Assembly (NCBI RefSeq): GCF_001424755.1
Contig: NZ_LMRF01000002.1
Coordinates: 137,556-201,555, forward strand
DNA: 64,000 bases
Direction of reading: 5' to 3'
From: Marmoricola sp. Leaf446
Lineage (GTDB): Bacteria; Actinomycetota; Actinomycetes; Propionibacteriales; Nocardioidaceae
The position numbers were made by a program, and so were the translations under genes. Under the pieces are notes generated by a model that searched no databases, had not been told where the DNA came from, and was given only the letters and a program-made list of their open reading frames with translations. Below, one piece after another: positions 3,331 through 27,074 of the stretch; position 1 is the first letter of the stretch; each line of letters begins with the position of its first letter.

Positions 3331-3420
3331 GGTGGCGTGTCCGAGCGGCCTAAGGAGAACGCCTCGAAAGCGTTTGTTGGCGCAAGTCAACCGAGGGTTC
3401 AAATCCCTCCGCCACCGCCA
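3331..3420 (+). tRNA. tRNA-Ser(CGA)
   Basis: A 90-nt class II tRNA with encoded CCA. The acceptor stem pairs GGTGGCG with CGCCACC, the anticodon stem pairs AACGC with GCGTT, and the loop CTCGAAA presents anticodon CGA at 3365-3367, reading UCG. A long variable arm follows, and the T arm is GAGGG-TTCAAAT-CCCTC. Its 3' 24 bp (3398-3421) recur at 27051-27074, so it is the integration target of the neighbouring element. The integrated copy keeps an intact tRNA. Confidence 0.97.
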
Positions 3421-3883: not shown

Positions 3884-6800
3884 ATGAGCGATCGAGTCGA
3901 CTACTTCTTCGAGCGCGGACAACTTGTTCGCGTCGCGTTCGAAGGCGTTCCTGAGTTCGCAGTCGTCCGGTACGCGCTGCCTGGTGAAGAGCCGGGATCT
4001 TGGGACCTTATTTTGGTCGACGACAACGACCGCAGGCACGAGGTGAACCTGTCCGCCGGCGACATCCACACTGTGCGACCGGTCGTCAGCGACGGCCGCG
4101 CGGATTCCGGCCGCGTGCTTGCGGCGATGTGGACCAGGTGGATGGACGCCGCGGCAGCCAACGCCGAGACCAGCGCTATGGCCTCGACACCTTTGAAGCC
4201 GTATGCCCATCAGACCACCGCCGTCTACGGCGCGATGCTTCCGCAGCCGCTGCTTCGGTTCCTGCTTGCTGATGAACCCGGCACCGGAAAGACAATCATG
4301 GCCGGGCTCTACATCCGCGAGATGCAGCGGCTTGGGCTAATACGACGCGCACTTATCGTGTGTCCGGCCAACCTCGCCACAAAGTGGGTCGACGACTTTC
4401 AGCGCCTTCTGGGCGGTGGACTGCGCCAGCTGACATCCGCCACGGTTCGCGAGGACGCGCTGAACTCGAACGACCTGTGGGTCGTCTCCCTCGAGCTCGC
4501 CGCGGTGAACCCCGCGGTGCAGGAAGCTATCCGGCCAGACAAGGCTGGCTGGGACCTGGTCGTGTTCGATGAGGCTCACCGACTCACACCCACCGCGGCC
4601 GGCTTCCACCAAGTCGGGCGACTGCTGGCGAAGAACACGCCAAGGGTGCTGCTCATGACCGCGACCCCGCACAGGGGCAAGGAATGGCTGTTCCGCCACC
4701 TGCTCCACCTGGTGGATCCCGCGATCTACCCGGACCCGGGCAACGACGCGAATGTCCCACTCAACGCTTTGCGCCCGGGACCGATCCACTTCCTGCGCCG
4801 CATGAAGGAAGACCTTGTCGACTACGACGGCAAGACGCGACTTTTCAAGGGCCGCACCGCCCATAATCACAACGTCCCCCTCTCGGCCACCGAGTACGGC
4901 TACTACCAGGCGGCGCTCGACATGGTCGACCGCTACTTCCCACCGATCGCGCAGCCGTTGGCACGAATGGTGTACGGCAAACGGGCCGCATCGACTTTGC
5001 ACGCGCTGGCCGAGACCCTGAAGCGTCGTCAGCGCCACATGGGTGAGATGAGCGAGGCCGAGGCCGCGCTCATCGCCGAGCAGGACGGACAGGGCGACGA
5101 GACCGAGGTCGAGGAGGCCAAGGTCATCCACACTGGCTCAACGTCGACCAAGGCCGAGCGTGCCGCGATAAGGGTCTTGGTTGAGCAGATCGACACCACC
5201 CTTGCCACTCCCAGCTGGCAACCCTCGAAGTGGAGTCGGCTGGTTGATGACTGTCTGACCAAGAACGGCATCCAACCTGACAACTATGAGCAGGCGGTGA
5301 TCTTCACCGAGTACGCCGATTCGGCCGAATGGATCGCCCGCCGCCTTGGGGCGGAGGGCTACACCGCCAAGATCTACTCCGGGCGCCAGAGCAAGCCCGA
5401 TCGCGACGAGGTCCGCAAGGCCTTCATGCGCGGCGAATTCCAAATTATCGTGACTACTGACGCAGGGAACGAAGGCATCGACCTCCAGGCCGCCCACGTC
5501 CTAGTCAACTACGACATCCCTTGGTCGCTGGTCCGCCTCGAGCAGCGGATGGGCCGCATCCACCGCGTCGGCCAGACCCGGGATGTCTTCCTGTACAACC
5601 TGGTAGCCACCGACACACGTGAGGGCGACACTCTCTTCCGGCTGCTAGACAACTTCGTGACCGCAGCCAACGAGCTGCGCGGCCAGATGTTTGACAGCCT
5701 CTCTGCGGTTGCTGAGATCACCGGCGTCGACTACGACAAGTGGCTCTCTGACCTGTACGGCAACGACGAGGTCCGCAAACAGCAGGCCGTCGACGCAGCC
5801 CGTGCGGTCCGGTCTCATGAACTAGCCCGAGTCGCCCGGCAGGTCCGTGACAACGAACGCCGGCTGGCAAGCCAGGTCGACGCCGTAGCCGCTCTGACTC
5901 TTCTGCAGCGCGACTTGTTCGCACGGATCAACCCCGCCATCGTCGAGGCCTACCTCGACCGGCTCGCAGGAGCTGGCGTCGTCCAGTCTTACCCCACCGC
6001 AGCCGGCCCAGGATTTCGACGCATCTCACTCCCCGCAGGAAGGCGACTGCCCAACAGCCTCGGAGGCGGAAACTTCGTCCACATCGCCACCAGCGGTGAG
6101 GCCTTACGCCAGGCAGAGGCGAGCATCGACGTCGGCGACACGACCACACTCGGCCCAGGCGAGGAAGGTTTCACTGACCTCATCGAACTGGCCAATCAGA
6201 CCCTCGCCGAGGACTTGCATCAGTCCGGTGCGGCCGCCGACCCAACGAGCCTCACGCCGTACGACCTATACGCCTACGAGGCGACCATGACCGAGAGCGA
6301 CGGTAAGCGCGCGAGTGTCTGGGCCACTTTGATCAAGGTCGACGACAGCGGCAATGCTCGCGCGGTGCGTTGGGAGACGCTGGCCAACCTGGTCCCCACC
6401 ACTCAGCACGGCACCTTCGCCCATCCGGCGCGAGAAGGCCGCGCGCTCGAGGCGGCTCACGAGGTCGCGGCAGCCACGGTGGCTGAGCACCGGCAGGTTC
6501 GCTCTGACTGGTTCGCCCAAGCCCGCCGCGACCTCACGAACCTCCCGCTCAACCTCACCGAATCTATCGAAGACCGCGACACCCGCGTCGACATGCGGCG
6601 ACGTCTCAAGCAGCAGACGGAAGAGCGGCTCCAGGAGCTGCAGCGCCTCGTCGACGTTCAGCTCACCAGGCCAAATTTGATCGGTCGCATCCGTGTCATC
6701 GCCGCCGCCGACGTCCACGTCAGGGAAGAGATCGACGCGGAGTTCGTTTCCATGCGCCACACCCAGCAGCTTCTCGAGGGTGACGGCTGGGTCGTCGAAG

Positions 6801-7114
6801 ACGTCCACAGCGAGGGCCGCGGGTACGACCTCGAGGCACGCCGCAACAGCCAGGTTCGTCACATCGAGGTGAAGGGCGTAACCGGCAGCGCCGCTAGCGA
6901 CGGCATCCGGATGACCGGCAACGAGGTCCTCATCGCAACTCAGCACCGTATGGAGTATTGGCTCTATGTCATCGACCATTGTGCCGACGGCAAGGGCCGC
7001 TGCTTTGGCGCCTACGCGGACCCCGCCACGCTCTTTTCCAGTGACATGACGGGCGACGCGATCTTCCGTGTGCCAGGTAGTAGCCTTAAAAACGCCCCCG
7101 GAAGTAACGCATGA
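3884..7114 (+). CDS. SNF2-family helicase with C-terminal DUF3883 domain
   Basis: Predicted DNA-translocating ATPase of a defence operon. In this 1076-residue protein, motif I (DEPGTGKT) is near 129-136, DEAH near 228-231, motif III (MTATPHRG) near 258, and the C-terminal helicase block ends in the arginine-finger motif QRMGRIHRVGQ near 554. The last ~130 residues form a DUF3883-like domain with the nuclease-fold signature IEVKGV near 994; whether it cuts DNA is unknown. The stop overlaps the next gene's start (ATGA), indicating translational coupling. DISARM DrmD is a related SNF2 protein, but DrmA and DrmB are absent here. Confidence 0.85.
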   Translation: MSDRVDYFFERGQLVRVAFEGVPEFAVVRYALPGEEPGSWDLILVDDNDRRHEVNLSAGDIHTVRPVVSDGRADSGRVLAAMWTRWMDAAAANAETSAMASTPLKPYAHQTTAVYGAMLPQPLLRFLLADEPGTGKTIMAGLYIREMQRLGLIRRALIVCPANLATKWVDDFQRLLGGGLRQLTSATVREDALNSNDLWVVSLELAAVNPAVQEAIRPDKAGWDLVVFDEAHRLTPTAAGFHQVGRLLAKNTPRVLLMTATPHRGKEWLFRHLLHLVDPAIYPDPGNDANVPLNALRPGPIHFLRRMKEDLVDYDGKTRLFKGRTAHNHNVPLSATEYGYYQAALDMVDRYFPPIAQPLARMVYGKRAASTLHALAETLKRRQRHMGEMSEAEAALIAEQDGQGDETEVEEAKVIHTGSTSTKAERAAIRVLVEQIDTTLATPSWQPSKWSRLVDDCLTKNGIQPDNYEQAVIFTEYADSAEWIARRLGAEGYTAKIYSGRQSKPDRDEVRKAFMRGEFQIIVTTDAGNEGIDLQAAHVLVNYDIPWSLVRLEQRMGRIHRVGQTRDVFLYNLVATDTREGDTLFRLLDNFVTAANELRGQMFDSLSAVAEITGVDYDKWLSDLYGNDEVRKQQAVDAARAVRSHELARVARQVRDNERRLASQVDAVAALTLLQRDLFARINPAIVEAYLDRLAGAGVVQSYPTAAGPGFRRISLPAGRRLPNSLGGGNFVHIATSGEALRQAEASIDVGDTTTLGPGEEGFTDLIELANQTLAEDLHQSGAAADPTSLTPYDLYAYEATMTESDGKRASVWATLIKVDDSGNARAVRWETLANLVPTTQHGTFAHPAREGRALEAAHEVAAATVAEHRQVRSDWFAQARRDLTNLPLNLTESIEDRDTRVDMRRRLKQQTEERLQELQRLVDVQLTRPNLIGRIRVIAAADVHVREEIDAEFVSMRHTQQLLEGDGWVVEDVHSEGRGYDLEARRNSQVRHIEVKGVTGSAASDGIRMTGNEVLIATQHRMEYWLYVIDHCADGKGRCFGAYADPATLFSSDMTGDAIFRVPGSSLKNAPGSNA

Positions 7115-9873
7115 CCCGCATGATTGAGCGCTGGTTCCCTTGTTCCCAAGTGAGCCAACAAAGCGCCAAAGGGTGGGGTTCTGGGGTCGCTGAGGCTGCA
7201 CTGTTCACGTGGTTCGCCAAGCGCCCAACAGCGCAGGCAAAGGCCGCCATTATCTGCAGCCTCCTGCCATGGCCCGATGAGGAGTCAGACCAGGTGCGGC
7301 TCCAGAACCTAGTCGCAGAAGCGATGAAGGGTCGATATGCCGCCTGGGATGCGCTGCGCGCCGAAATCCTAAAGACTCATCCCGGAGGAGTCTCTGTGCT
7401 GGACCCATTCAGCGGCCGGGGAATGATCCCGCTGGAGGCGGCTCGGCTAGGGTTACAGGCCCATGCGATCGACTACAGCCCCGTTGCAATTATCGGGTCC
7501 GAGTTGCTTTCTGACTACATATTCCGTGACTGGTCTGGGGAGCCTCCCCTCTCCTTTGCGAGCACTGAGATAAACGATCAGCTAGACAATACAGTCCCGC
7601 GCCTGCAGTTGGACGTTGCCCGGTTCCTCCGCGAGGTTGGAACCAGGTTTTCGGAGGAAATGGACGAGTTCTATCCCAAGATCAGCAGCGAGTATCCCTG
7701 GGCGTATTTGTGGGCCGTTTCGTTGCCGTGCGTTGAGTGTGGCTACCGTTATCCGTTGTATGGCAACAATGTGCTGCAGCCTGGCTATTGGCGGGGGAGT
7801 GAGCGCAAGGGGGACCGGCGCCTTGACCCGGGGCAATCTTTTTCGATAGAAGCCGACCGTGCCTCGGGCACGTATTCGATCCGCATCCATGATGGCGAGG
7901 CTCGGCAGGCACCGACGCTGTCGCGAGTTGCAGGGCACGGGAAAGCCGCAGTATGCCCATTTTGCGGGCATGTGAGCGACCTAGCCGCGTGTCGAGCTCA
8001 GGCGAATGATGGTCAGGGACGTGATGAACTGCTCCTGGTGGCGGAGCACGACAAGACCCGAGGAAAGGTCTTCCGAGTCGTGACGAACGTCGAATTGGAA
8101 GCGATCGCGGCTGCACGCGACGCCTTGCACAAAGAGAAAGCGTTCGGCAGTTTCCTGCCCGCGGTGCCCAACGAACAGATTGCACCCGGAAACAATAATA
8201 TAATAGGGCCTTCGATCTATGGGGCTAGGACCTACGGTGACCTGTGCAATTCCCGCCAGACTCTGTCCTTCGTGCGCTTGTGTCGTATCCACAACGAGAT
8301 CTACCATGAACTTCTCTTGGCCGGGTTCTCCCATGACTACGCGGCGGCCCTATGTAGTTTTGGGGCAGCTGCAATGGGCCGGAAGATCATGCGATCGACG
8401 CGTGGCGCGCAGTTGCAGGTATATAAGGACGGCAGGCCGACCGGGATCAACAACATTTGGTTAAACGAGACCAGTCTGAGCTTCTCGTTCGACTATGCCG
8501 AGGTCGGTCTAGCCCACGGCGCGGGATCATGGAGTGAGGTGGCTTCGCGAACCGTAAAAGCGCTTGCCAATCTGCTCGAGGGCGCGAGCCGCGGAAGATC
8601 TGTAAATGTGTCTCGGGGAAGCGCCACGGCGCTGCCGATGAGGGACCAGAGCCTCACCGCAGTCGTAACGGACCCGCCGTACGATGAAATGATCCCGTAT
8701 GCGGATGCCTCTGACCTGTATTTCGTTTGGATGCGGCGAGCGCTTTACGCTGCAAAACCGGCGATGGCGGTCAGCGCTGATCCATACGGTGCGCAAGAGA
8801 AGCAGGAAGAGATCATTGTCAAGCGTGTGCGAGGGCTAACGAAGCAGACTGAATTTGTGGAGCACCGAACTCGCGAGCATTACGACGCGCGTCTAACGCT
8901 CGCTTTCAGCGAGATGCGACGGGTCGTCCAGGGGGATGGCGTCGTCACGATCGTATTTGGGCATGGCGAGCCCGAAGTTTGGCAGCGGCTACTGGGGTCA
9001 ATCGAAAGCGCTGGGCTTGTGATGACCGGCTCATGGCCAGCCAATACGGAGGCAGGTGGGCAGCAGGGAAAGGCGAACATTGAGACCACGCTGACGATGG
9101 CTTGTCGACCAGCACCTGCCGGGCGGCCCTCTGGGCGTAAGGGTGCGGTTGAGGCAGAAATCAAGAGCGTGATCGAGGAACGTTATCCGGACTGGGAGCG
9201 CTGGGGGCTAGCTCCAGCGGACATGCTCATGGCAGCGGCAGGTCCCGCCATGGAGGCTGTCGGACGCTACAGCGAGGTGCTCGACGCAAAGGGCGAGCGT
9301 GTTGACATTGCGACTTTCCTGCCGCTCGCTAGAGCTGCCGTTCAGGACGCGATGGCCGTCGAGATCAACCATCAGCCGCTTGAGACCTTCGATGCGCGGA
9401 CCCGGTTTGCCCTTTGGTGGGTTCGCTTATATGGCCGTCAGGTCCAAGCAAAATCGGAACTGCGTTGGCAGGCTCTCGCCTCATCACTTGATCTCGACGC
9501 CGTGCGTGACCTAGTTCCCGACGCGGATAAGGGGGTTCGGTTCATGTACGCAAGCAAATTTCAGGGCAAGCTGACGGCCGAGTCGGCAGTTATCGACGTG
9601 GCGCTAGCCCTCGCGGCTGCGTCGGAAGACGGCCTCGAGTCCATGGGAGAGGTAATGGTCGCTGCCAAGCGCCATCCTGAGGACTCATATCTTTGGGCTG
9701 CAATCCAGTTCCTTGCTGACAGGTTGCCTGACAACGATCCCGATTCCGTTTCCTATACCAGGGTGCTGCGAACGAGGACGGGGATAAGCAACGCCGCAGA
9801 GACAGTGGCTGCAACCAACTTCCAGACATCCCGCGAGCAGCGCGAGGATGATTTGCAGTTGAGGTTGCTTTGA
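7111..9873 (+). CDS. DUF1156 adenine-specific DNA methyltransferase-like protein
   Basis: Second gene of the defence operon, 920 residues. A class I methyltransferase core is visible: motif I (LDPFSGRG, about 96-104) and motif IV DPPY (about 521-525), the latter typical of N6-adenine or N4-cytosine methylases. Between them lie zinc-ribbon cysteine pairs (CVEC near 207, CPFC near 281). This layout matches the COG1743/DUF1156 family, members of which are labelled anti-phage-associated in current family collections (recalled, not searched). Codon use is markedly less GC-biased than in the flanking genes. It probably marks self DNA or modifies targets for the helicase and ATPase. Confidence 0.85.
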   Translation: MTRMIERWFPCSQVSQQSAKGWGSGVAEAALFTWFAKRPTAQAKAAIICSLLPWPDEESDQVRLQNLVAEAMKGRYAAWDALRAEILKTHPGGVSVLDPFSGRGMIPLEAARLGLQAHAIDYSPVAIIGSELLSDYIFRDWSGEPPLSFASTEINDQLDNTVPRLQLDVARFLREVGTRFSEEMDEFYPKISSEYPWAYLWAVSLPCVECGYRYPLYGNNVLQPGYWRGSERKGDRRLDPGQSFSIEADRASGTYSIRIHDGEARQAPTLSRVAGHGKAAVCPFCGHVSDLAACRAQANDGQGRDELLLVAEHDKTRGKVFRVVTNVELEAIAAARDALHKEKAFGSFLPAVPNEQIAPGNNNIIGPSIYGARTYGDLCNSRQTLSFVRLCRIHNEIYHELLLAGFSHDYAAALCSFGAAAMGRKIMRSTRGAQLQVYKDGRPTGINNIWLNETSLSFSFDYAEVGLAHGAGSWSEVASRTVKALANLLEGASRGRSVNVSRGSATALPMRDQSLTAVVTDPPYDEMIPYADASDLYFVWMRRALYAAKPAMAVSADPYGAQEKQEEIIVKRVRGLTKQTEFVEHRTREHYDARLTLAFSEMRRVVQGDGVVTIVFGHGEPEVWQRLLGSIESAGLVMTGSWPANTEAGGQQGKANIETTLTMACRPAPAGRPSGRKGAVEAEIKSVIEERYPDWERWGLAPADMLMAAAGPAMEAVGRYSEVLDAKGERVDIATFLPLARAAVQDAMAVEINHQPLETFDARTRFALWWVRLYGRQVQAKSELRWQALASSLDLDAVRDLVPDADKGVRFMYASKFQGKLTAESAVIDVALALAAASEDGLESMGEVMVAAKRHPEDSYLWAAIQFLADRLPDNDPDSVSYTRVLRTRTGISNAAETVAATNFQTSREQREDDLQLRLL

Positions 9874-9943
9874 GCCAATCGATCGCATTCGCAGTTCGAA
9901 GCCCCCAAGGTTGGCAGCACCTCAACGTTCCAGGAGGACGGCA

Positions 9944-12943
9944 GTGAACATTAACGTGACTCCGTGGTGGAAGGCGCTGAAGATCCGCCGAGAGATACTC
10001 AACGCGTCCGGCCAAATCGACGACGTCCAGATGTCTCTGTTCCGCGCTGTTCACGGCACGGGTGCCGATCGACCGGAGTACGCCGATGCGACGTACTACG
10101 GCGACATCACCCACCCCACCGAAAGACTCATTGACCTCCTTACCGAGATCGCAGTGCGGATCGGCGGTGGTGACGACTACCTCAAGGCCCGCGCCGTCAC
10201 GCGCCTAGACCAAGGCATGGGCGGCGGCAAGTCGCACGCTTGCATCGGTGCCTTCCACCTCGCCGCGCATCCGGACGCACTACTCGGTACTGAGCTCGGC
10301 CAGCAAGTAGCCGCGCGTGCCAAAGCGAAGACCGGCAAAGTGATCGCCGGTGACCTCCACCGGCCGCATGTCGTTGTGCTGCCCTGCGACAACATGACTC
10401 CCGGTGCCGGCGTCCAGGAGCTCGACGGGCCAGCCGTCAGCCTCTACGAAAGGTTCCTATGGCGCCTGTTCTCCAAGGACTACTCGCTCTACGAGCGATA
10501 CCAGCCTTTCTGGAGCGACAAGCACAAGATCGCCGAGGCCTTACGGGCCGTCAACCGTCCGATCTTGATCATCGTTGACGAGGTCCTCGATTACATCGGC
10601 AACGGTCTGGACGGCACCATCAAGCCGGATATCGCCGCCCAGGATATGGCGTTCCTGCGCGCCCTGCTCGACGTTGTCAACGACGTCCCGCACACCGCGA
10701 TGCTCATGGTCATGATCGCTTCGGACACAGACAAGACCGCCATCTCGCGAGCGGCCCGGGAGCGGCGCGACGATCTCAACAGCCTGCTCGAGCGCAACGG
10801 GACTCCGGCCACCGTGACCGAGGTAGGCGACTTCGCCGATATCCTCCGGCGGCGTCTCTTCGACTCAGAGCCTGCCATGGAGGTTCTCGCGGCGACTGCA
10901 AAGCTCTTTGACCCTGTGCTCGCGGACAAGGCCTGGGGGAAGTACGTCTGGGACTCGACCGGAGCTGACTGGCGCCGTCAGTGGTCGAGGGACGTCGCAG
11001 CCTGCTATCCGTTCCACCCGTTGCTAATGAGCGTGGCGAAGGAAGAATGGAGCAAGGTCACAGGCTTCCAACGAGTTCGCTCGACCATTCGGATTTTTGC
11101 GGCGACGGTTTATGCGCAGCAGCAGCGCGGCATGGCAGGAGAGTGGGTGCCAGCGCTTATCGGACCCGGCGACCTTCCGCTCTCTGACAGTGCTGTCCGA
11201 GAGGCCATTCTTGGCAGCGGCCTGGTTGAGGACGACCGAACCATCGCGAACTATCGCAGCCTGGCAGAGATCGAGGTTGTCAACCACGACGGGAGCAGCG
11301 GGACCGCCCGGCGGCAAGACCTAGACCGTCCCCGGGTCCTTTGGGCCGATAACAATCCGAGGGCGGCCGAGCGCGCTGCGACTTTCATCTTCCTAGCCAG
11401 CATTGTCGGCACTCTGCGCCCCGGTCGCGGCCGCGGCGCAAGCGCACCGGAGGTCAAGGCCGCCACGAGCGTCCCAGACACCAACTACACCGTTACCGAC
11501 GCTGACACGGTCGTTGAGGAGCTGGTAAACCCTGACCGCGGCTTGAGTGCGCTGGACATCATCCCGGGCCAGGGGAATAACAAGCCGGCACGGTACTTTC
11601 TCTCCACCCGACTCACGCACCGGATGTTGGTCAACAACATCAAGCGGACCATCACCGAGACGGAACGCAATACGGTGATCGCGGATTTCGCTCAGAAACT
11701 CGCCAGCAGCGGCCCCTTCCGTGACCTGAAATTCGTCTCCGCCGACCTCGGCCGGCGTCCGACTGATGTCCTCTCGACCGCTGGCATCGATACTGCTTTC
11801 ACCACGCGACTTGTCATCCTTGACCCTGCCCAATTCAGCCTCCGCAACGGGATGGAAGCCTCGACCCTGGAAGCCCTAGAGGTCGCCATGGGACTCGGCC
11901 AAGGTGCCCAACAACTTCCGATGCAATGGGCCAGCAGCGCGGTATTCGCAGTGGTCAACACCCAGCGCCGCAGCCTCGTGCGCGGGGTCGCCACCGAGTA
12001 CCTCGCCCGGCAGAAGGCGCTCGCGGCACCCGAAGTTCAGGCCGACGAGGAATTGAAGAACACCGGCACCACAGAGTTGCGCGGCGCCAAGGAACAGTTA
12101 GAGAAGGCGATCAAGCGGGCGTACCAGCATGTCGCCTACCTCGCCCAGCCTGACCCTGACGGCGAGCGGTATCTGGACCAGCTGACGTTCGACGATGACA
12201 ACTTCACAGCCCTGGACGGCACGATCGTGTGGAAGGGCCTGGCGCGCCGCGACAAGGTCCTCGACTCTGGGCAGTTCAATGCCAAGGCCCTACAGCACAA
12301 CCTGCGCGATCAAGATTACGGCCGTACCCTGTCCGACATCCGCGCGTCGTTCTACAACGCCCCGCGGCTTCCGCTGCTCTACAACGGTGACCGAGACCTG
12401 CAGCAGGCGATCTACGACGCAGTCGATGATGGTGCGCTGAGCATCCTCGACGGGTCCGGGTCGGGTGTTGCGGTCACCGCTCCTAACCAGGTGAATCTGA
12501 CCAGCGCGGGTCTGCGGTTGGCTAAACCGCAGCTGGCCACCTGCCCCAAGTGCGGTCAGTCAGCCCACGAAGGACCTTGTGTTGGCAGCGAATCCGGTGA
12601 CACCAACAACGGCGGAGCAAACTTCCCGAGCAACCATGGCGGAGGAGGGACGTCTACCTCGGGCGGCAGTGGGTCGAGCAGTTCGGCATCGAGCGACGAG
12701 CAGGCAATACTGCCGGCCACGGAAAAGCAGGTCGCTTTCTCCTTCACCAGCAATCTCCTGGCGAGCGCGGACGGCGCCGACGGCTTTGCGGCGCTGTTCC
12801 GGTCGTTCTACATGGCCCTGGATGAACGGCAGATTAGCTACCTCCAAGGCGCCCTTCAGTTGGTCGTGGAGGCCGAAGCGGCCGAATCGATTCAGGAGAA
12901 GCTGAACGATCTCGGCATTACCGGGACGATAAAGGACCTGTGA
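9944..12943 (+). CDS. DUF499 AAA-type ATPase of the defence operon
   Basis: Large predicted ATPase, 999 residues from the GTG at 9944. That start is chosen because AGGAGG at 9932-9937 is 6 bp away. The Walker A motif GMGGGKSH is near residue 91, and a Walker B-like stretch (ILIIVDEVLDYIG) is near 210. A four-Cys zinc-knuckle-like segment (CPKCG...GPC) lies near 866-880, followed by a Gly/Ser-rich linker and a short C-terminal domain. This matches COG1483/DUF499, a family repeatedly found with DUF1156 methylases in defence islands. The spacing from the upstream gene (70 bp) still fits one operon. Confidence 0.85.
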   Translation: MNINVTPWWKALKIRREILNASGQIDDVQMSLFRAVHGTGADRPEYADATYYGDITHPTERLIDLLTEIAVRIGGGDDYLKARAVTRLDQGMGGGKSHACIGAFHLAAHPDALLGTELGQQVAARAKAKTGKVIAGDLHRPHVVVLPCDNMTPGAGVQELDGPAVSLYERFLWRLFSKDYSLYERYQPFWSDKHKIAEALRAVNRPILIIVDEVLDYIGNGLDGTIKPDIAAQDMAFLRALLDVVNDVPHTAMLMVMIASDTDKTAISRAARERRDDLNSLLERNGTPATVTEVGDFADILRRRLFDSEPAMEVLAATAKLFDPVLADKAWGKYVWDSTGADWRRQWSRDVAACYPFHPLLMSVAKEEWSKVTGFQRVRSTIRIFAATVYAQQQRGMAGEWVPALIGPGDLPLSDSAVREAILGSGLVEDDRTIANYRSLAEIEVVNHDGSSGTARRQDLDRPRVLWADNNPRAAERAATFIFLASIVGTLRPGRGRGASAPEVKAATSVPDTNYTVTDADTVVEELVNPDRGLSALDIIPGQGNNKPARYFLSTRLTHRMLVNNIKRTITETERNTVIADFAQKLASSGPFRDLKFVSADLGRRPTDVLSTAGIDTAFTTRLVILDPAQFSLRNGMEASTLEALEVAMGLGQGAQQLPMQWASSAVFAVVNTQRRSLVRGVATEYLARQKALAAPEVQADEELKNTGTTELRGAKEQLEKAIKRAYQHVAYLAQPDPDGERYLDQLTFDDDNFTALDGTIVWKGLARRDKVLDSGQFNAKALQHNLRDQDYGRTLSDIRASFYNAPRLPLLYNGDRDLQQAIYDAVDDGALSILDGSGSGVAVTAPNQVNLTSAGLRLAKPQLATCPKCGQSAHEGPCVGSESGDTNNGGANFPSNHGGGGTSTSGGSGSSSSASSDEQAILPATEKQVAFSFTSNLLASADGADGFAALFRSFYMALDERQISYLQGALQLVVEAEAAESIQEKLNDLGITGTIKDL

Positions 12944-13472: not shown

Positions 13473-16181
13473 GTGACGGCGGTGAGGCGACGGGTGCATG
13501 GCGGTGTGAAGTTCTACCGCGGCTCGGCCGGTGCCGCGCGCTCCTACGTGGAGGCTGACCGCTCGCGGGCCGACGACTACTACCTCGCCGAGGGCAGCGG
13601 GGTCGCGGAGCGGTACGTCGCCTCGGTAGACCCCGGGGGAGGTGCACCAACCTGTACCGGCGCGAGCGCTGGGGCCATGGACGGTGACGCCTACGAACGA
13701 TGGGTCGGCGGATATGACCTCGCTTCCGGAGAGCCGAAGGGCCGGCTGCGCACGGACGCCAACGCGCTGCGGTTCGTCGAGGTCGTCGTCAACGGCCCGA
13801 AGACCTGGTCGCTCGTCGCCACCCTCCATCCCGAGATCGCCGCGGCGTACGACGCGGCGCAGGACCGTGCCGCGACAGAGATCATCGGGTGGCTGGCCGA
13901 GCATGCGACCACCCGGGTCGGTCCACGAGGTCGGCAGGTGCAGGTCCCGGTCGAGCAGCTCGAGGCTGCGGTGGTGCGGCACTACACCTCCCGGGCCGGG
14001 GACCCGCACCGTCATCTGCACCTGCAGGTCAATGCCCGGGTGTTCGCGGCCGGTCGGTGGCGGGGGCTGCACTCGGTGGGTGTGGTGGACAGCATCGAGG
14101 CGATCAATGGGATCGGCCACGCCGCCGTCATGTGCGACGCGGAGTTCCGGGACGCGCTCGCCGCGCACGGTTACAGCCTTGACCCCGAGACGGGCGAGGT
14201 GGTCCAGCTCGCCCGGTACGTCGGGGCGTTCAGCGCACGGGCATCGCAGATCACCCGGAACATCGACCGCTACGAGGCCGCCTGGCGTGCCGAGCACCCC
14301 GACGAGGAACCTGGCCCGCGATTACGTCGCGGTTGGGACCGGCGCGCCTGGGCGCAGGCGCGACCCGACAAGGTCGTCCCGACCAATGGCGCCCAGCTCG
14401 CCGGCCGGTGGCGCGACGAGCTGGCCGACATGGGATTCACCCCACCGCTCCGCACTGCTGGACATGGCGCGCGTCTGGGGACGGCGATCGGTCGGATCAA
14501 CCGCGATGCGGTGATCGACCTGGTCCTCACCCGGTTGGGCGCCCGGCGGTCTGCTTGGAATGGCGCTGACGTCCGCGGCGAGGTCGAGCGGATCGTCGCC
14601 GCCGTGGACGTCGTCACCCCGCCATCGGTACGCCGCGAGCTGGTCGAGGACCTGACCAGTCGCACCATTGAGTCGTGCGTGCCGCTGCTGGCCGGCGACG
14701 ACGTCCCCGAACATGTCCGGGTCCTCACCTCCCGCAACGTCCTCGGTGTCGAGGCCGACCTGGTCGACCGCCTCGCGGCCCGTGCCGAACACCCGACAGT
14801 CGCGCAGTGGCTGGGCCCGGTGGCCGCGCAGCAGCGGGGCCTGGTCGACGCGCAACGAGAGGTTGCCATTGCCCTGGCCGGCACCGGAAAGCTGTTGGTG
14901 ATCGAGGGCGCGGCGGGAGCCGGCAAGACAACCACCCTCGCCGCGGCACGTGAGCTGCTCGACCTGCAGTCGCGGCGACTGGTCGTCGTGACCCCCACCC
15001 TGAAGGCCGCAAGGGTCGTCCAAGACCAGGTCGGCGCCGACGCGTTCTCTGCGGCCTGGCTGGTCCATCAGCATGGCTACCGGTGGGACGACAACGGCCG
15101 CCGGACCCGCGAGCCCGTCGGTCGCGAGCACGTCGACGCCAGGGCCCGGTTGCTGCCTAAAGACATGTTGCTGGTTGATGAGGCGGGGATGCTCGATCAG
15201 GACATCGCTACGGCGTTGCTCACCATCGCCGACGAGACCGGGGCTCGGGTTGCGTTCGTGGGTGACCGGCATCAGCTCCCGGCGGTTGGCCGTGGCGGCG
15301 TACTGGACCACGCCGCCCGCTGGGCACCACCCGAAGCGTGTCTGACGTTGGAGAGCGTCCACCGGTTCACCGACGCGACCTACGCCGACCTGACCCTCCT
15401 CATGCGGCGTGGTGTGCGCAGTGGCGAGGTCTTCGACGCCCTCGTCGACCGGGGTCAGATCGTCGTGCACCCCACCGACGTCGAACGCCTCCACGCCCTC
15501 ACCACCTGTCATGCAGCGGACGGGTTGATCGTCGCGGACACCCGCGAACGAGTCGCCGCCCTGAACGCCGCCATCCGTGACCACCGGCTCACCACTGACC
15601 CCACCACCTCGCTCACCACCGCCGCCGGTGAGCAGGTAGGGATCGGGGACCGGATCGCCACCCGCCACAACGACCGCGCTCTCGGGGTCGCGAACCGCGA
15701 CACCTGGACCGTCAGCCGCCTCTCCGGCGACGGGGCCCTGGCCGTGACCGGCCGCAACGGCGACCGGGTCCTGCCCGCGAGCTATGTGCGCGAGCATGTC
15801 GAGCTCGCCTACGCCACCACGGTGCACGGCGCTCAGGGCGAGACCGTCGACCAGGCCCACCTGCTTGTCGGCGAGACCACCGGTGCGGCCGCGGCGTACG
15901 TCGGCATGACCCGCGGCCGCCACCGCAACACCGCCCACGTCGTCGCCGAGAGTCTCATCGACGCACGCGCGCAGTGGATCGATGCCTTCAACCGCTACCG
16001 GGCCGACCTCGGCCCCGGGCACGCCGCCCAGACCGCTGCCGACGACGTCGAACGCTACGGCCCCCAGCTCCTAGCCAAGACGGTCCGCCAGCGCCATCAA
16101 CTCGAACCCGCCATGTCCGCAACCCACCGGGACGGCCTCTACGCCCGACCTGCCCGTCGCTCGCCAGGGATCGGCTTCTGA
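13473..16181 (+). CDS. MobF-family conjugative relaxase (TrwC/TraA-like)
   Basis: A 902-residue relaxase-helicase that would nick oriT and guide the strand during transfer. The N-terminal TrwC domain holds the three-histidine metal motif HYTSRAGDPHRHLH near 170-183, with candidate catalytic tyrosines near 15, 25 and 37-38. The C-terminal half is a RecD-like helicase with Walker A GAAGAGKTT near 478 and DEAGM near 569. It is somewhat short for TraA-type proteins. The true start could be GTG 13473 or 13506. No coupling protein or secretion genes accompany it, so mobilisation would need a helper element. Confidence 0.88.
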   Translation: MTAVRRRVHGGVKFYRGSAGAARSYVEADRSRADDYYLAEGSGVAERYVASVDPGGGAPTCTGASAGAMDGDAYERWVGGYDLASGEPKGRLRTDANALRFVEVVVNGPKTWSLVATLHPEIAAAYDAAQDRAATEIIGWLAEHATTRVGPRGRQVQVPVEQLEAAVVRHYTSRAGDPHRHLHLQVNARVFAAGRWRGLHSVGVVDSIEAINGIGHAAVMCDAEFRDALAAHGYSLDPETGEVVQLARYVGAFSARASQITRNIDRYEAAWRAEHPDEEPGPRLRRGWDRRAWAQARPDKVVPTNGAQLAGRWRDELADMGFTPPLRTAGHGARLGTAIGRINRDAVIDLVLTRLGARRSAWNGADVRGEVERIVAAVDVVTPPSVRRELVEDLTSRTIESCVPLLAGDDVPEHVRVLTSRNVLGVEADLVDRLAARAEHPTVAQWLGPVAAQQRGLVDAQREVAIALAGTGKLLVIEGAAGAGKTTTLAAARELLDLQSRRLVVVTPTLKAARVVQDQVGADAFSAAWLVHQHGYRWDDNGRRTREPVGREHVDARARLLPKDMLLVDEAGMLDQDIATALLTIADETGARVAFVGDRHQLPAVGRGGVLDHAARWAPPEACLTLESVHRFTDATYADLTLLMRRGVRSGEVFDALVDRGQIVVHPTDVERLHALTTCHAADGLIVADTRERVAALNAAIRDHRLTTDPTTSLTTAAGEQVGIGDRIATRHNDRALGVANRDTWTVSRLSGDGALAVTGRNGDRVLPASYVREHVELAYATTVHGAQGETVDQAHLLVGETTGAAAAYVGMTRGRHRNTAHVVAESLIDARAQWIDAFNRYRADLGPGHAAQTAADDVERYGPQLLAKTVRQRHQLEPAMSATHRDGLYARPARRSPGIGF

Positions 16182-16369
16182 CATGCGTTGACGAGTTCAC
16201 CCGAGGGCGTCCACTCAGGCTCCTCAGTGCGCCTGTTCACCACGGGGACAGGTGCCGACGTACGAGGAAGAGCACGGACATGGACCACCGACATCACCCC
16301 GCGCGTCCCCATCGCCCGGTCGTAAGTGACCGAGAGGACACCTCCCGACGAGCGAAGAAGGACAAGCAG

Positions 16370-16606
16370 ATGGACCCGATCCAGATCCCCCGCGACTGGG
16401 ACGACCGAGGCCTGATCACCTTCGAGGAGTTCTGCGACCTCATCCGCATCCCACAGCGCACCGTGCGTGACTGGCGCAGACGAGGCGTCGGCCCCCGGTG
16501 GGCACGCTTCAACGGCTGCGGTCGCCTCTACATCACCGTCGCCGAAGCCCGCCGCTTCCTCACCTCCGCGGCACCCACCACACGCAGGGAGCGGACCAAT
16601 GGCTGA
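16370..16606 (+). CDS. Small HTH protein, excisionase-like
   Basis: A 78-residue protein with a MerR/Xis-like helix-turn-helix (TFEEFCDLIRIPQRTVRDWRRRG) and a GRLYITVAEARRFL wing. ATG 16370 is preferred because AAGGA lies 7 bp upstream. It is probably a recombination directionality factor or regulator of the element. It overlaps the next HTH gene by 8 bp. Small HTH genes of this type often accompany relaxase and integrase genes in actinobacterial integrative elements. Confidence 0.65.
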   Translation: MDPIQIPRDWDDRGLITFEEFCDLIRIPQRTVRDWRRRGVGPRWARFNGCGRLYITVAEARRFLTSAAPTTRRERTNG

Positions 16607-16793: not shown

Positions 16794-16876
16794 GCGTGTC
16801 GCAAGAGGATCGGGCGCGGCACGGAAAGCATGGTGACGCCAGTCCGTAGCGCCGGTGCACGCACGCTCCCTTTACA

Positions 16877-16898
16877 GATAATGTCCCTGAGGGGGACA
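16877..16898 (+). promoter_or_regulatory. -10 box and operator-like inverted repeat before the AbiEi-like gene
   Basis: GATAAT at 16877-16882 is a good -10 hexamer. It runs straight into TGTCCC-N5-GGGACA (16882-16898), a perfect 6-bp inverted repeat covering the expected transcription start. That arrangement suits autorepression by the HTH protein encoded just downstream. The RNA leader before GTG 16908 would be only about 20 nt. Confidence 0.5.
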
Positions 16899-16907
16899 AT
16901 AACTGTT

Positions 16908-20801: not shown

Positions 20802-23243
20802 GTGGACACCAACGTACGGACGCCCCAGGAAGTTTTCTACCTGCCGCAGCACCTTGTCGTACCGCTGTTCCAGCGTCCATACGTGTGGACCGAGACAGAC
20901 CAATGGCTCCCGCTTTGGAGCGACGTCGTCCGGATGGCCGAGCTGCGACTCAAGGAGCCGCACACGTCGGCTCGGCACTTTCTCGGCGCGGTCGTGCTGC
21001 AGGCCGGCATCCCGATCGTCGGCACGGTGCCTACCTGGAACGTAATCGACGGTCAGCAACGGATCACGACATTGCAGGTGCTGACGGACGCCGCGGCGCT
21101 GGTCTTCGAAAGCCGGGGGATCGACCCGCTCGCACAGCAGCTGGGCGACCTCACGCACAACCGACCGCACTTCGGTAACGAGGGTCGGTCGCGCAAACTG
21201 GTGCACACGAATCGGGACGGCGCTGCCTTCGCCGAGGTGATGGAGGCGGAGCCGCCGGTCGACTACGCCGCGCTGTCGCACTCGGGCGCCCTTATTACGA
21301 GGGCCCACGCGTTTTTTGCCGACCAGATTGTCCGGTGGCTCGATGAGGACAGCGACGCTGACGGCGCGGTGGAACAAAGGGCCACGGCGTTGACGGGCGT
21401 CATCGCGCAGGGCCTGCAGCTGGTCGTGATCGACCTGAAGGCTGACGAGAACTCCCAAGAGATCTTCGAGACTCTCAACGCGCGTGGCACGCCACTGACC
21501 GCGGCGGATCTCATCAAGAACTTCGTCTTCCAAAAGCTGGATGGCGAGGGCGGAGACGTGGCGAAGGCATACGCCGAGGACTGGCCCTTCGAAACGCCGT
21601 TCTGGGAGGCGGAAGTCAGCGTTGGTCGCTACCTCATCAGCCGCGGCTCACTCTTCCTCTCGCAGTGGCTCCAGTCGCGGGTCGGTGAGGAGATCGGCCC
21701 GCGTCAGACCTTCATCCGGTTCAAGCATCACGTCGACCACGAGGCCGGTTCTTCGATGAGCGAGCTCTTGCAGATCATCAAGAAGCAGGCTGGGGCCTAT
21801 GCGTCCTGGCAGATCAACGCCGATGACACGACGCGCGCGTTGACGGTGCCAGAGAGAGCCTTCTACCGAATGCAGGCCGCCGGTGTTGAGCTCCTAAAGC
21901 CCATCGTGATCTGGCTGCACGACCCCTCGCTCGACATCCCCGCCGCCACGGCCGACAAGGTCACCGAGATGGTCGAGTCGTGGGTCGTACGCCGACAAAT
22001 CCTGCGGCTCACGTCCGCTAACCTAGGCCGAACGGTGGCTGAGATCGTCAGAGCGTTCCGCACCTCGCCGTCCAACGGGTTGGCAGCGCAAGTCCAGGAC
22101 TACCTGACCGCGCTAAACGCATCCTCGAACTACTGGCCCGGTGACGACGAAATCCGTCGGCACCTGGCAGACGAGCAGGCTTACCGCCGCTATCCCCGGG
22201 CCCGGCTTCGGATGTTTCTGGAGACCGTCGAGGATCAGCTACGCGCGACCCACCAATCGCCCAGTGTGCCGCGCAACGGGTTCCCGATCGAGCACATCCT
22301 TCCCCAGTCGTGGCAGCAGCATTGGCCGGTCGACGGGCTTGAGAAGGAGGTGGAGCGGGGCGAGCACGTGCACCGGCTCGGCAACTTGACGCTGCTCACG
22401 ACTAGCCTCAACAGCGCGGTCTCGAACGGTGCGTGGTCCACCAAGCGCTCCAAGCTCGACAGCGCCGACGTCTTCCTTCTTAATCGCGCGGTCAAGCATG
22501 TCGACGAGTGGAACGAGGCCAGCATTGATGAGCGCAGCGCTGTCATGACAGAGGCTCTCTTGGCAGCCTGGCCCGTACCTGCAGGCCACATCGGCGCCGT
22601 CGCTGACAACGTCCCAGCGGCCGAGAAGTGGGTGGAGATCAAACACCTGCTCGCCGCTGGTCTGCTTGCTCCCGGATCGGTGCTGACCGCACGGCCGGGC
22701 AACTGGGCGACGGTGACGGCGACGGTCACACCGACTGGGCTGCTTGAGGTGAAAGGCCGTGTCTACGAGTCGCCATCGGCAGCAGGATCGGCGGTGCGTG
22801 GCGGCAGCACCAACGGGTGGAAGTTCTGGCGTCTTGAGGACGGCCGCTTCCTCTCAGACGTACGCGCCTCGCTGCGCGGGGAGAAGCCTGCTCCGCGCAA
22901 GAGCGGTTTCGACTGGGCTCCTATGCACGCAATCCTCGAGTCGCTACCAATCGGTCATTGGACGTCGTACACCGAGCTCGCGGACGCAATCGGTACGGCG
23001 CCGCAGCCTTTGGGCAACCACATCACCACGTGCCCCCACTGCGCTAACGCGTGGCGAGTTCTGACCTGGGACGGCCGGACCGCACCGCATTTCACCTGGA
23101 CCGACCCGGAAGACAAGCGCGATCCCCAAGCCCTGCTCCTCGCCGATGGAGTCCGCCTAATTGACGGCAAGGCTGACCCGGCCCAGATGCTGCGCAGCGA
23201 CCAACTCGCCGGCTTTGCCGAACGACCCATCGCAAACGTCTGA
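20802..23243 (+). CDS. GmrSD-type protein (DUF262-DUF1524) with RAMA-like and MGMT/ATL-like C-terminus
   Basis: An 813-residue single-chain relative of GmrSD, the type IV restriction system that attacks modified phage DNA. The N-terminal DUF262 domain has DGQQR at 83-87 (NTP-binding region). The DUF1524 HNH-like nuclease shows EHILPQ near 496 and RLGNLTLL near 526. A segment near 620-680 (GSVLTARPG...GWKFWRL) resembles RAMA/DUF4357 reader domains. The final part near 705-765 (IGHWTSYTELADAIG...NAWRVLTWDG) resembles the DNA-binding domain of alkylguanine methyltransferases, but with no Cys in the PCHR position, as in alkyltransferase-like proteins. Start is GTG 20802. Confidence 0.82.
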   Translation: MDTNVRTPQEVFYLPQHLVVPLFQRPYVWTETDQWLPLWSDVVRMAELRLKEPHTSARHFLGAVVLQAGIPIVGTVPTWNVIDGQQRITTLQVLTDAAALVFESRGIDPLAQQLGDLTHNRPHFGNEGRSRKLVHTNRDGAAFAEVMEAEPPVDYAALSHSGALITRAHAFFADQIVRWLDEDSDADGAVEQRATALTGVIAQGLQLVVIDLKADENSQEIFETLNARGTPLTAADLIKNFVFQKLDGEGGDVAKAYAEDWPFETPFWEAEVSVGRYLISRGSLFLSQWLQSRVGEEIGPRQTFIRFKHHVDHEAGSSMSELLQIIKKQAGAYASWQINADDTTRALTVPERAFYRMQAAGVELLKPIVIWLHDPSLDIPAATADKVTEMVESWVVRRQILRLTSANLGRTVAEIVRAFRTSPSNGLAAQVQDYLTALNASSNYWPGDDEIRRHLADEQAYRRYPRARLRMFLETVEDQLRATHQSPSVPRNGFPIEHILPQSWQQHWPVDGLEKEVERGEHVHRLGNLTLLTTSLNSAVSNGAWSTKRSKLDSADVFLLNRAVKHVDEWNEASIDERSAVMTEALLAAWPVPAGHIGAVADNVPAAEKWVEIKHLLAAGLLAPGSVLTARPGNWATVTATVTPTGLLEVKGRVYESPSAAGSAVRGGSTNGWKFWRLEDGRFLSDVRASLRGEKPAPRKSGFDWAPMHAILESLPIGHWTSYTELADAIGTAPQPLGNHITTCPHCANAWRVLTWDGRTAPHFTWTDPEDKRDPQALLLADGVRLIDGKADPAQMLRSDQLAGFAERPIANV

Positions 23244-23585
23244 GTGCATCGTGTTCGGTTGGCGCCCGGCTGACGGCTGAGAGTTGGATTTCTGTGGCTT
23301 GGCCACTCCAGGTTGCCGCGGTCTGAATCGCGCCAATTGCCCAGGTCCTGATGCGAGCCTGGGACCGGCGGTATCGTCCCCTCCACCCGTCAACCCGCAG
23401 GAAACACCAGAACGGTGGATCAACTCGCCGGCTACCTGGACGCGCCCGCAGAGTGGCACATCAGGGCAGGTTTCATGGGTCAAAGCGGCGATATGGTGCG
23501 CCTAGGCGCGGGGGCCGAACGGACACGGCGGGCGGAGCCGGTGACACACACTGGAGCGGGACCAACGCAGACGGAACGGATCCCG
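23244..23585. other. Gap upstream of a hypothetical gene
   Basis: No independent gene is supported. An in-frame GTG at 23415 could extend the next gene by 57 codons, but the added sequence is compositionally odd and unlike a conserved N-terminus. It probably holds that gene's promoter. No clear hairpin was found. Confidence 0.4.
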
Positions 23586-25587: not shown

Positions 25588-26850
25588 TCAGCCCCTCCCT
25601 CGGGTGCCTCGGGCAGAGAGCCGGCGACCCAGCTCGCGGTCGCGCTCGAGGCGGGAGTGCTGGTACCGCATGGCCATGCTCGGCGTGGAGTGGCCGAGCC
25701 GATGCATGAGCTCGGCCAGGCTCGCGCCCTCTTCGCCTGCCCAGCTCGCACCGGTGTGCCGGAGGTCGTGCAGGTCAAGATCGGAGCGACCGGCGACTCG
25801 CCTCGCCTCACGCCATCCGAAGCCCGGCCTGATCACGTCACCCTGAGGGTTGAGCACGGCCGCCCGTCCATTGAGTGTCGCCTCGGGCAGCTGTGCCTGA
25901 GGATCGCGGCGCGAGGGGAAGAGCAGTCCATCGGACCCGGGAGCCGCGAAGCGAGTCAGATGGTCCTCGACGGTTGACAGAAGGAACTCGGGGATCGAGA
26001 CCGATCGGACTCCAGCCTCCGTCTTCGGGGCGCCGACCACGTTCGCGGTGAGCAGGCCAGAAGCCGGATCAGCCACTCGGGCGCGGACGACACCGCGGCT
26101 GATGTTCACCCAACCCAACGGTTCGCCTGCGCCGTCGGTGCCGAGCATGAGGTCGCCGCGTCGGAGCTCTCGGAGCTCCCCAGAACGCAGTGCGCACCAC
26201 GTGGCAAGCAGGAGGAGCAGACGGAGCCGTTCGGGCATGGCCTCGACCATGGCGCCCAGCTCATCGAGGCTTGCCGGCCGCAAGTTCTTTCGGCCGTGCC
26301 GCGCGCCAGCCCCGCGCAGCTGTGCCGGGTTCTTGCTCAGCAGCTCGTCCTCGTCGACCGCCGTGTTCAGGATCGTGCGAACGGTCGTGTAGGCGTGTGC
26401 CTTGGCTGCCGGTCCAGCCGTCAGACCCTCGTGCCACTCCCGAACCGCTACCCGGGTGATCTCGTCGAGCGGAGTGTTGCCGAAGGTCGGATAGACATGG
26501 ACCCGAAGACTGGACCGGTACTTGTCCCGAGTCGATGGCCGCAGCGGTTCCCCCCGGCTGTTGCGGCGGTTGTGGATCCACCGCTCCGCATACGACTCGA
26601 ACGTCGGCAGTCGCCTCGCCTCCTCCTCCCTGCGCGCTTCCTCGAGTCGCACCTTCGGCGCCTTCCACACCTCGGGCTCGATGAGCAGCCGCCGCTCGGA
26701 GTGCAGCCAGGCCTCTGCATCGATGCGGGAGGAGAACGTGACGGGCGCGGCCACCAGGTCGCCCGACGGACTCGCGTAACGCGCTTGGAAGCTCCCGCTG
26801 GGCAGCCGCCGGATGCTGCCGAAGCCCCGCTTCTCGGTCCGCCGTGCCAT
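25588..26850 (-). CDS. int: Tyrosine recombinase / integrase of the element
   Basis: A 420-residue site-specific recombinase that would catalyse integration at tRNA-Ser. It has an N-terminal arm-binding-like domain, a SAM-like core-binding domain, and a catalytic domain with Arg222 (CALRSGEL), Lys near 276, HDLR (His361, Arg364), His387 (HRLGHS) and the nucleophile Tyr396 (AMRYQHS). ATG 26850 (MARRTEKRGFG) is preferred over 26907: the 19 extra residues would be a translation of the CGTGCCA repeats, which look like binding sites, and GGCGG precedes 26850. The gene reads away from attR, 200 bp inside it. Confidence 0.93.
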   Translation of the reverse strand: MARRTEKRGFGSIRRLPSGSFQARYASPSGDLVAAPVTFSSRIDAEAWLHSERRLLIEPEVWKAPKVRLEEARREEEARRLPTFESYAERWIHNRRNSRGEPLRPSTRDKYRSSLRVHVYPTFGNTPLDEITRVAVREWHEGLTAGPAAKAHAYTTVRTILNTAVDEDELLSKNPAQLRGAGARHGRKNLRPASLDELGAMVEAMPERLRLLLLLATWCALRSGELRELRRGDLMLGTDGAGEPLGWVNISRGVVRARVADPASGLLTANVVGAPKTEAGVRSVSIPEFLLSTVEDHLTRFAAPGSDGLLFPSRRDPQAQLPEATLNGRAAVLNPQGDVIRPGFGWREARRVAGRSDLDLHDLRHTGASWAGEEGASLAELMHRLGHSTPSMAMRYQHSRLERDRELGRRLSARGTRGRG

Positions 26851-26940
26851 CGAAATCGCCGCCATTTCGTGCCATCTACGTGCCAGATGACTCGAGTTTC
26901 GTGCCATCTACGTGCCATATCGAAGGCTACATCTGGCACG
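26843..26940. repeat. Cluster of CGTGCCA arm-type repeats upstream of the integrase
   Basis: Direct CGTGCCA copies start at 26843, 26868, 26879, 26900 and 26911, and an inverted copy (TGGCACG) lies at 26934-26940. Two 19-bp doublets (26867-26885 and 26899-26917) are identical to the left-end repeat at 3477-3495. Spacings of 11 and 32 bp put the copies on roughly the same helix face. They overlap the integrase start, so integrase or Xis binding there could also control int expression. Confidence 0.72.
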
Positions 26941-27050: not shown

Positions 27051-27074
27051 TTCAAATCCCTCCGCCACCGCCAG
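27051..27074 (+). repeat. attR: second copy of the 24-bp tRNA-Ser 3' end
   Basis: Exact duplicate of 3398-3421 without the rest of the tRNA. It marks the right boundary of the element; sequence after it returns to high-GC chromosomal genes. Confidence 0.93.

Follow-up and report, generated by a model that had tools for sequence, protein, structure and literature searches.

A deeply divergent Hma-type operon on an actinobacterial island, and the exchange of its methylase gene among relatives

The window analysed here is a stretch of 64,000 nucleotides (nt) from Marmoricola sp. Leaf446 (contig NZ_LMRF01000002.1, positions 137,556 to 201,555), in which three adjacent genes, hmaA, hmaB and hmaC, encode a helicase, a DNA methylase and a large ATPase. 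An earlier note, made by a model from the sequence alone, had singled out this operon as a compact and possibly incompletely described defence system. The kind of system, Hma or BREX-related (BR), is already known; new here are a deep lineage of it, a pattern of hmaB exchange and the island on which the window's copy lies.

Results

The operon and its predicted proteins

The three open reading frames (ORFs) were found where the earlier note had placed them (3884–7114, 7111–9873 and 9911–12943), all on the plus strand and without internal stops. hmaA (3884..7114) encodes a RapA-like SNF2 translocase of 1076 amino acids (aa) with a C-terminal DUF3883/NOV_C domain, a predicted PD-(D/E)XK nuclease. 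It shares 4 nt (7111–7114) with hmaB (7111..9873), which encodes a 920-aa DNA methylase, probably acting on adenine and proposed here as the specificity subunit, with the motifs DPFSGRG at residues 98–104 and DPPY at 521–524. hmaC encodes a DUF499 AAA+ ATPase that appears BrxC/ORC-like. The ORF list starts it at TTG 9911, which gives 1010 aa; GTG 9944 is the likely true start, since it coincides with the first codon of homologues and has an AGGAGG six bases before it; this makes the gene 9944..12943 and the protein 999 aa. Thus, the overlapping or closely spaced genes and the intact translocation, methylation and ATPase motifs described in the earlier note were borne out: the three ORFs are adjacent and full length, and all tested catalytic residues are present.

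Pfam places SNF2, Helicase_C and NOV_C domains in HmaA, the last above cut-off (PF13020, 4.9e-16). The NOV_C domain (6740..6988, plus strand) carries E953, D982, E995 and K997, which are conserved in 56, 57, 55 and 57 of 58 helicases, respectively; D982, E995 and K997 are retained jointly in 55 of them. Its predicted secondary structure runs helix-strand-strand-strand-helix-strand. The fold comparison of HmaA (VIA-align) covers mainly residues 94–664 and neither supports nor excludes a nuclease, so that the predicted PD-(D/E)XK assignment of NOV_C draws on the Pfam match, the motif, the order of secondary-structure elements and published descriptions, and not on a fold match. The nuclease of the system is most likely this DUF3883 domain, as is already in print, and the suggestion in the earlier note that the nuclease function might reside there is most likely right. 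At the other end of HmaA, residues 14–66 (3923..4081, plus strand) are predicted to form a small beta-barrel of five short strands (14–17, 25–33, 40–45, 51–56 and 64–66), a candidate Tudor domain by position only.

In HmaB, the Pfam family UPF0020 matches above cut-off and N6_N4_Mtase just below it. DUF1156, the family to which the earlier note had assigned the methylase, fared less well than the PF13020 and DUF499 assignments of the other two proteins, both recovered above their cut-offs: Pfam DUF1156 does not match HmaB at E<=0.001, and the NCBIfam model DUF1156_antiphage matches it partially and far below cut-off (81.9 bits versus 1000). Four plasmid homologues, 58–61% identical to HmaB, are named DUF1156 proteins by NCBI. 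The order of elements is motif I, insert, DPPY, and DPPY is present in 63/63 HmaB homologues. The insert region, residues about 140–505 (7528..8625, plus strand), is a putative target-recognition segment, whose limits we set from motifs and the conservation profile; it contains the zinc-ribbon cysteines C207, C210, C282 and C285, conserved in all 63 homologues. The DPPY motif points to an amino-methylase, probably of adenine. The PADLOC HmaB model is likewise an adenine methylase, unlike the original Hma description, which calls the enzyme a 5-methylcytosine methylase (PMC8565338).

HmaC matches DUF499 above cut-off (PF04465, 3.9e-16). A phmmer search against PDB sequences gave no match at E<=1, and BrxC was reached by fold comparison only, which covers mainly residues 18–471 and not the C-terminus. 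In the structure model, residues 940–1010 form two helices and no strands, and an RRM fold is not visible. By Pfam, the window's HmaC lacks the N-terminal HEPN_Swt1 domain found in all three canonical bacterial DUF499 proteins scanned (L125, L127 and L129; the scan also took in one archaeal protein and left out the shorter L141 and L142). This absence is not diagnostic of lineage because the printed Type-1 taxa have HEPN in 1370 of 2446 only (PMC12839542). We also considered a C-terminal zinc knuckle (C878, C881, C890) and rejected it as a general feature, the cysteines at 881 and at 890 each occurring in 24/63 proteins.

The gene content matches a complete Hma/Type-1 set

The original description of Hma, from 2021, is of an operon in which a helicase, a methylase and an ATPase gene stand together, found in 26 phyla (PMC8565338). 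According to a 2026 survey, which renames the DUF499-centred systems BR and divides them into three types, Type-1 consists of three genes only, and in 1921 taxa (79%) its helicase carries a fused PD-(D/E)XK nuclease; DUF3780 and an HKD nuclease are additional in Type-2, and Type-3 has PglZ and, in most cases, an inactive STAND ATPase. The survey also states that antiphage activity is confirmed for a relative (PMC12839542). Annotated Type-2 loci in our set (L143, L144, L145) show exactly the Type-2 gene set. Judged by its genes, the window's operon is a complete Hma/Type-1 BR set and no remnant of a larger locus. The extra genes that the earlier note found lacking belong to another type: DUF3780 and the phospholipase-D helicase are Type-2 parts. 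PglZ is a Type-3 part. The label "incompletely described" thus fails for the gene set, and holds only for the strong divergence of the lineage and for its hypothetical mechanism.

The operon resembles Type-1 BR in its three-gene core, in the fusion of an SNF2 helicase to PD-(D/E)XK, in the zinc-ribbon target-recognition domain (TRD) inserted in the methylase and in having neither DUF3780 nor PglZ. It differs in that the DUF499 protein, the helicase and the methylase each fall in a deep separate clade among the sampled sequences, and in the RRM that is not visible in the HmaC model. Three other assignments were rejected: (i) a reduced Type-2 locus, since the operon contains no DUF3780 or HKD nuclease, Pfam names none among the scanned neighbours and HmaA has no HKD match at E<=0.001; (ii) Type-3 BR or BREX, since PglZ has no match in the whole genome (0/1; controls positive in 2/14), BREX differing further in that the genome has no BrxC-type DUF6079 and that the nuclease of the operon is fused to the helicase; and (iii) DISARM, since DrmD, which with BrxH is among the next-best helicase models for HmaA, scores 217 against an NCBIfam cut-off of 610 (the other DISARM genes were not sought individually).

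hmaB is exchanged on conserved hmaA and hmaC backgrounds

Scanning genome contigs with a DUF499 alignment gave 60 related loci, and six plasmid loci and the window brought the set to 67. By the taxon of the database record, 57 of the 60 scanned loci are actinobacterial (the exceptions are L076, L084 and L097). All three genes are complete in 55 of the 67 loci, always on one strand and in the order A-B-C, with an A/B junction estimated at −4 nt in 35. As the loci were found through their DUF499 gene, the presence of all three genes in 55 of them shows that the set is not a chance neighbourhood. The other 12 loci are incomplete (contig ends, insertion sequence (IS) insertions, split frames, gene parts not found) and were omitted from paired comparisons.

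Which subunit carries the specificity of the system? Over the 1485 pairs formed by the 55 complete loci, HmaA and HmaC identities rise and fall together (r=0.99), and the correlation of HmaA with the HmaB recognition region (140–505) is r=0.70. When 376 close pairs are compared in segments of 120 residues, all segments of HmaA and HmaC follow overall divergence (r 0.77–0.94); HmaB segments over residues 1–660 follow it poorly (r 0.32–0.60) and later ones better (0.56–0.80). Grouping at 70% identity yields 26 recognition types versus 13 groups of HmaA and 15 of HmaC. On a quick A+C tree of 27 complete loci (the window together with closer relatives), recognition types I and II alternate, with four changes where the minimum is one. 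One type (at least 70% identity) can turn up in distant A/C backgrounds, and sister loci can carry different types.

At the DNA level, the change is abrupt. In two Mycolicibacterium loci (L048 and L051), HmaA is 96% and HmaC 97% identical and the recognition region 40%; DNA identity is mostly 0.82–0.94 in hmaA, 0.5–0.8 inside hmaB and back to about 0.9 in hmaC. Four further pairs show a drop over the 5' part of hmaB against a background of about 0.8–0.9, all five pairs having been picked for low recognition identity from 39 with a helicase identity of at least 0.88. Candidate exchange pairs include L092/L089 (helicase 0.95, ATPase 0.92, recognition region 0.60) and L043/L050 (0.89, 0.84 and 0.43). 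L043 and L050, both operons of the lineage, come from contigs of the same genome assembly, that of Nonomuraea harbinensis CGMCC 4.7106. The DNA boundaries and the A+C tree are stronger evidence for exchange than the pair correlations.

Several points weigh against a specificity segment that moves between backgrounds and serves restriction as well as marking: (i) the 1485 pairs are not independent, being linked by phylogenetic kinship; (ii) in the 39 pairs whose HmaA proteins are at least 0.88 identical, the recognition region is at most 0.61 identical in 13 and at least 0.73 in 26, so that close kin share it more often than not; (iii) in L048/L051 and others the entire hmaB differs, not the recognition part alone; (iv) the recognition region could diverge fast by selection; and (v) the 2026 survey assigns part of invader recognition to the RRM at the C-terminus of DUF499, which is hypervariable, and to the inactive restriction endonuclease domain of the helicase (PMC12839542). 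Taken to its end, the fourth point would make the variability of HmaB the result of fast divergence under diversifying selection without recombination, which would say nothing on the subunit that reads the site. Recognition regions are known to evolve fast and TRDs to diverge rapidly (PMC12839542), and the compared pairs are phylogenetically related, 26 of the 39 closest having a recognition region in common (at least 0.73). We nevertheless find this account improbable, since the DNA boundaries are sharp in the five chosen pairs, with high identity restored on both sides, and since recognition types are common to distant A/C backgrounds; both argue for exchange.

On the simplest reading of these patterns, motif specificity belongs to B, and A and C, which have none of their own, depend on B for it. 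In BREX, engineering has shown that PglX determines specificity in marking as well as in phage targeting (PMC11341690; PMC11842806), and by analogy HmaB would set specificity for marking and restriction alike. A literature search yielded, in the parts of the publications that it reached, no statement of the methylase as a dual specificity factor for Hma/BR. Alternatively, HmaB could protect the host only, while the C-terminus of HmaC and HmaA sense the invader by another cue, such as DNA ends, replication or phage factors, with methylation as no more than a brake. The linker and tail of HmaC are indeed hypervariable (mean identity 0.19–0.40 at 881–960 in 20 close members), and BREX restricts by inhibiting phage DNA replication, according to PMC13326643. 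However, the hypervariable tail (841–961, mean identity 0.43) still follows phylogeny (r=0.90 over the 376 close pairs), whereas HmaB is exchanged between backgrounds, and an HmaA or HmaC that recognised the mark in its own sequence context should change with HmaB, which neither does. Sensing by HmaC thus appears less likely, and we regard host protection as the sole role of HmaB as unlikely.

A deep, mostly actinobacterial lineage

How far does the lineage stand from canonical Hma? The best PADLOC matches of the three proteins are HmaA, HmaB and HmaC, one per protein (PADLOC's own cut-offs being no part of the comparison). These scores are much lower than those of canonical proteins: 297 bits for the window's HmaA versus 1436 for the canonical actinobacterial L127, and 106 bits for its HmaC versus 899, 911 and 1132, a haloarchaeal DUF499 protein outside the canonical group reaching 287. 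The window's matches are also partial (HmaC 29–671 of 941, HmaB 312–827 of 967, HmaA in three pieces), and those of the canonical HmaA of L127 and HmaC of L127, L129 and L125 are near end-to-end. By BLAST, the window's HmaC reaches at most 115 bits (25%) against canonical Type-1 rows, and the canonical Type-1 protein L146 reaches 88–103 bits against three Type-2 rows. On these scores, the lineage is about as distant from canonical Hma as Type-2 is.

For the DUF499 trees we chose 20 members of the lineage, 16 references with annotation and, to represent canonical systems, 12 of 29 phylum loci, to which one BrxC locus out of three was added; the careful tree (42 rows) omitted six lineage members and BrxC. 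In the careful tree, the lineage is one clade (100/100; stem of 2.23 changes per column), a second (97/90) unites canonical Type-1 with similar phylum rows, and Type-2 is a third (100/100); the branch that joins the lineage and Type-1 against Type-2 and others is weak (85/57). Quick helicase and methylase trees (SH-aLRT only) recover the same lineage clade at 100 and place it as sister to Type-1, at 99 for the helicase, where long branches are flagged (Type-2 L144, L128 and Type-1 L141), and at 82 for the methylase. A BrxC-rooted DUF499 tree has one very long branch (5.48) and does not resolve the base. The lineage is thus deep, and may be sister to Type-1 or stand alone. Haloarchaeal DUF499 proteins (L128, L137) group with cyanobacterial ones, apart from Type-1 and Type-2 (97/87), and their loci hold a small gene between DUF499 and DUF1156 (L128:12273–12890, with DUF7680, and L137:12327–12947).

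The lineage is a minority among DUF499-bearing actinobacterial genomes. In a phylum sample, 35 of 396 genomes have a DUF499 match, three of them of this lineage by score (the window's own genome included); in a class sample, the figures are 32 of 394 and two. On plasmid records, the six closest HmaC proteins are 62–76% identical to that of the window, and the other 24 among the 30 best of 119 matches 21–26%.

Several members of the lineage are broken. In one Rhodococcus plasmid locus (L034), IS256-family insertions run through hmaA and hmaB; in another (L037), hmaC alone survives, incomplete and next to an IS256-like element; and L061 and L072 have split frames. By this precedent, the window's operon might be decayed or silent, carried as cargo of its island, which we judge highly improbable because its three genes are full length with their tested catalytic residues in place.

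A side branch with a degenerate nuclease site

The nuclease residues of HmaA are lost in 3/58 helicases (L071, L074 and L077, one clade of the DUF499 tree), each in a different way. Cutting by HmaA, as predicted from these residues, is thus not universal, a point against the mechanism proposed below. In the same three loci (3/55; one cluster), a protein of roughly 1000 aa is encoded tail-to-tail with hmaC, by a NACHT/STAND-type gene on the minus strand (L071:12942–15938, L074:12909–15932, L077:13014–15938). Pfam NACHT is above cut-off in L071 and L077 and below it in L074. The N-terminus is Trypsin_2 in L074 and another domain, without a Pfam match, in L071 and L077, where by eye it resembles an Mrr-type nuclease. 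Relatives of the protein occur on 46 plasmid records, so the gene may reflect one capture event in one clade. That it replaces the degenerate HmaA nuclease as effector is a lead, not a demonstration.

The operon lies on a mobile island

Upstream of hmaA lies a tRNA-Ser(CGA) gene (3331..3420, plus strand), the integration target, whose 3' end is the 23-nt core of the left attachment site, attL (3398..3420, plus strand). An exact 23-nt copy, attR, lies at 27051..27073 (plus strand). A search for direct repeats of at least 30 nt had found no att site; a search with a shorter pattern did, using a 25-mer that never matched by chance when the window was shuffled 100 times. In the whole genome, a 25-base probe overlapping the att core matches only at these two sites, with up to three mismatches. 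Once joined, the flanks of the island align in one piece, over the junction, to the unoccupied site in the genome of a sister species (88%; flanks 95% and 93%). Hence, 3421–27073 is a 23.65-kilobase insertion. None of 23 other genomes of the genus holds a close HmaB, the best matches being 28–30% identical.

Downstream of the operon, the plus strand of the island encodes a TrwC/MobF-type relaxase-helicase (13473..16181; PF08751, 1.2e-52), two excisionase-like helix-turn-helix proteins matching phrog_66 (15974..16606 and 16830–17582; 1.6e-6 and 7.9e-7) and a GmrSD-type IV restriction enzyme with a RAMA domain (20802..23243; PF03235 1e-31, PF07510 1e-28, PF18755 9.6e-17), the second defence gene of the island. 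A 332-aa ORF (23415–24413) without a Pfam or PADLOC match at E<=0.001 separates it from a tyrosine integrase that adjoins attR (25588..26907, minus strand; PF00589, 8.8e-12). Beyond the three core genes, neighbours differ from locus to locus: when the 1881 ORFs that flank the 55 complete loci and reach 120 aa were clustered, within flanks limited by contig ends, the most widespread cluster, in 6/55 loci, was that of the window's relaxase. In a Rhodococcus plasmid locus (L036), a DUF262 gene of the same cluster as the window's GmrSD-RAMA gene lies downstream of the operon. The GmrSD-RAMA fusion is predicted to be a type IV restriction enzyme with a modified-base reader. BREX is reportedly also found paired with a type IV enzyme, a precedent for the island's combination of a system against unmarked DNA with an enzyme against modified DNA.

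Discussion

We think it likely that the operon is a complete and self-contained restriction-modification-like defence system of the Hma/Type-1 BR kind. HmaB would methylate adenine in a specific motif of the host DNA and would be the only subunit to read that motif. Where the motif is unmethylated, HmaB would act as a docking subunit for HmaC and HmaA. HmaC, the BrxC/ORC-like AAA+ ATPase, would probably assemble a complex on DNA, and HmaA, the RapA-like translocase, would move along the DNA and cut it with its C-terminal PD-(D/E)XK (DUF3883) domain. The direct basis is gene content, gene order, motifs, predicted folds, the shared evolution of HmaA and HmaC and the repeated exchange of HmaB segments on near-identical A/C backgrounds; from these we infer complex formation, site reading by HmaB in restriction, translocation, cutting, the methylated base and phage defence. 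In Type I and III restriction-modification systems, one specificity module (HsdS or Mod) is exchanged by recombination while the motor-nuclease is conserved, a pattern that the operon resembles. It differs from them in adding a BrxC/ORC-like AAA+ ATPase, and its methylase and motor appear to be of other families.

A broader proposal, which we put forward tentatively, is that the operon represents a fourth deep DUF499 lineage, mostly of Actinomycetota, in which hmaB or its recognition segment would be a plug-in cassette that retargets restriction and modification together, and in one sub-lineage of which the HmaA nuclease would be dead and a NACHT/STAND effector may take its place. Given its low scores against existing models, the lineage may be overlooked or wrongly assigned in defence surveys.

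How do Hma/BR systems tell self from non-self? Several sensing modules have been proposed in print (PMC12839542), and the natural exchanges single out the methylase. These exchanges are ready-made pairs that make the question testable. If the proposed role of HmaB is true, the specificity of an actinobacterial restriction system could naturally be addressed through its methylase.
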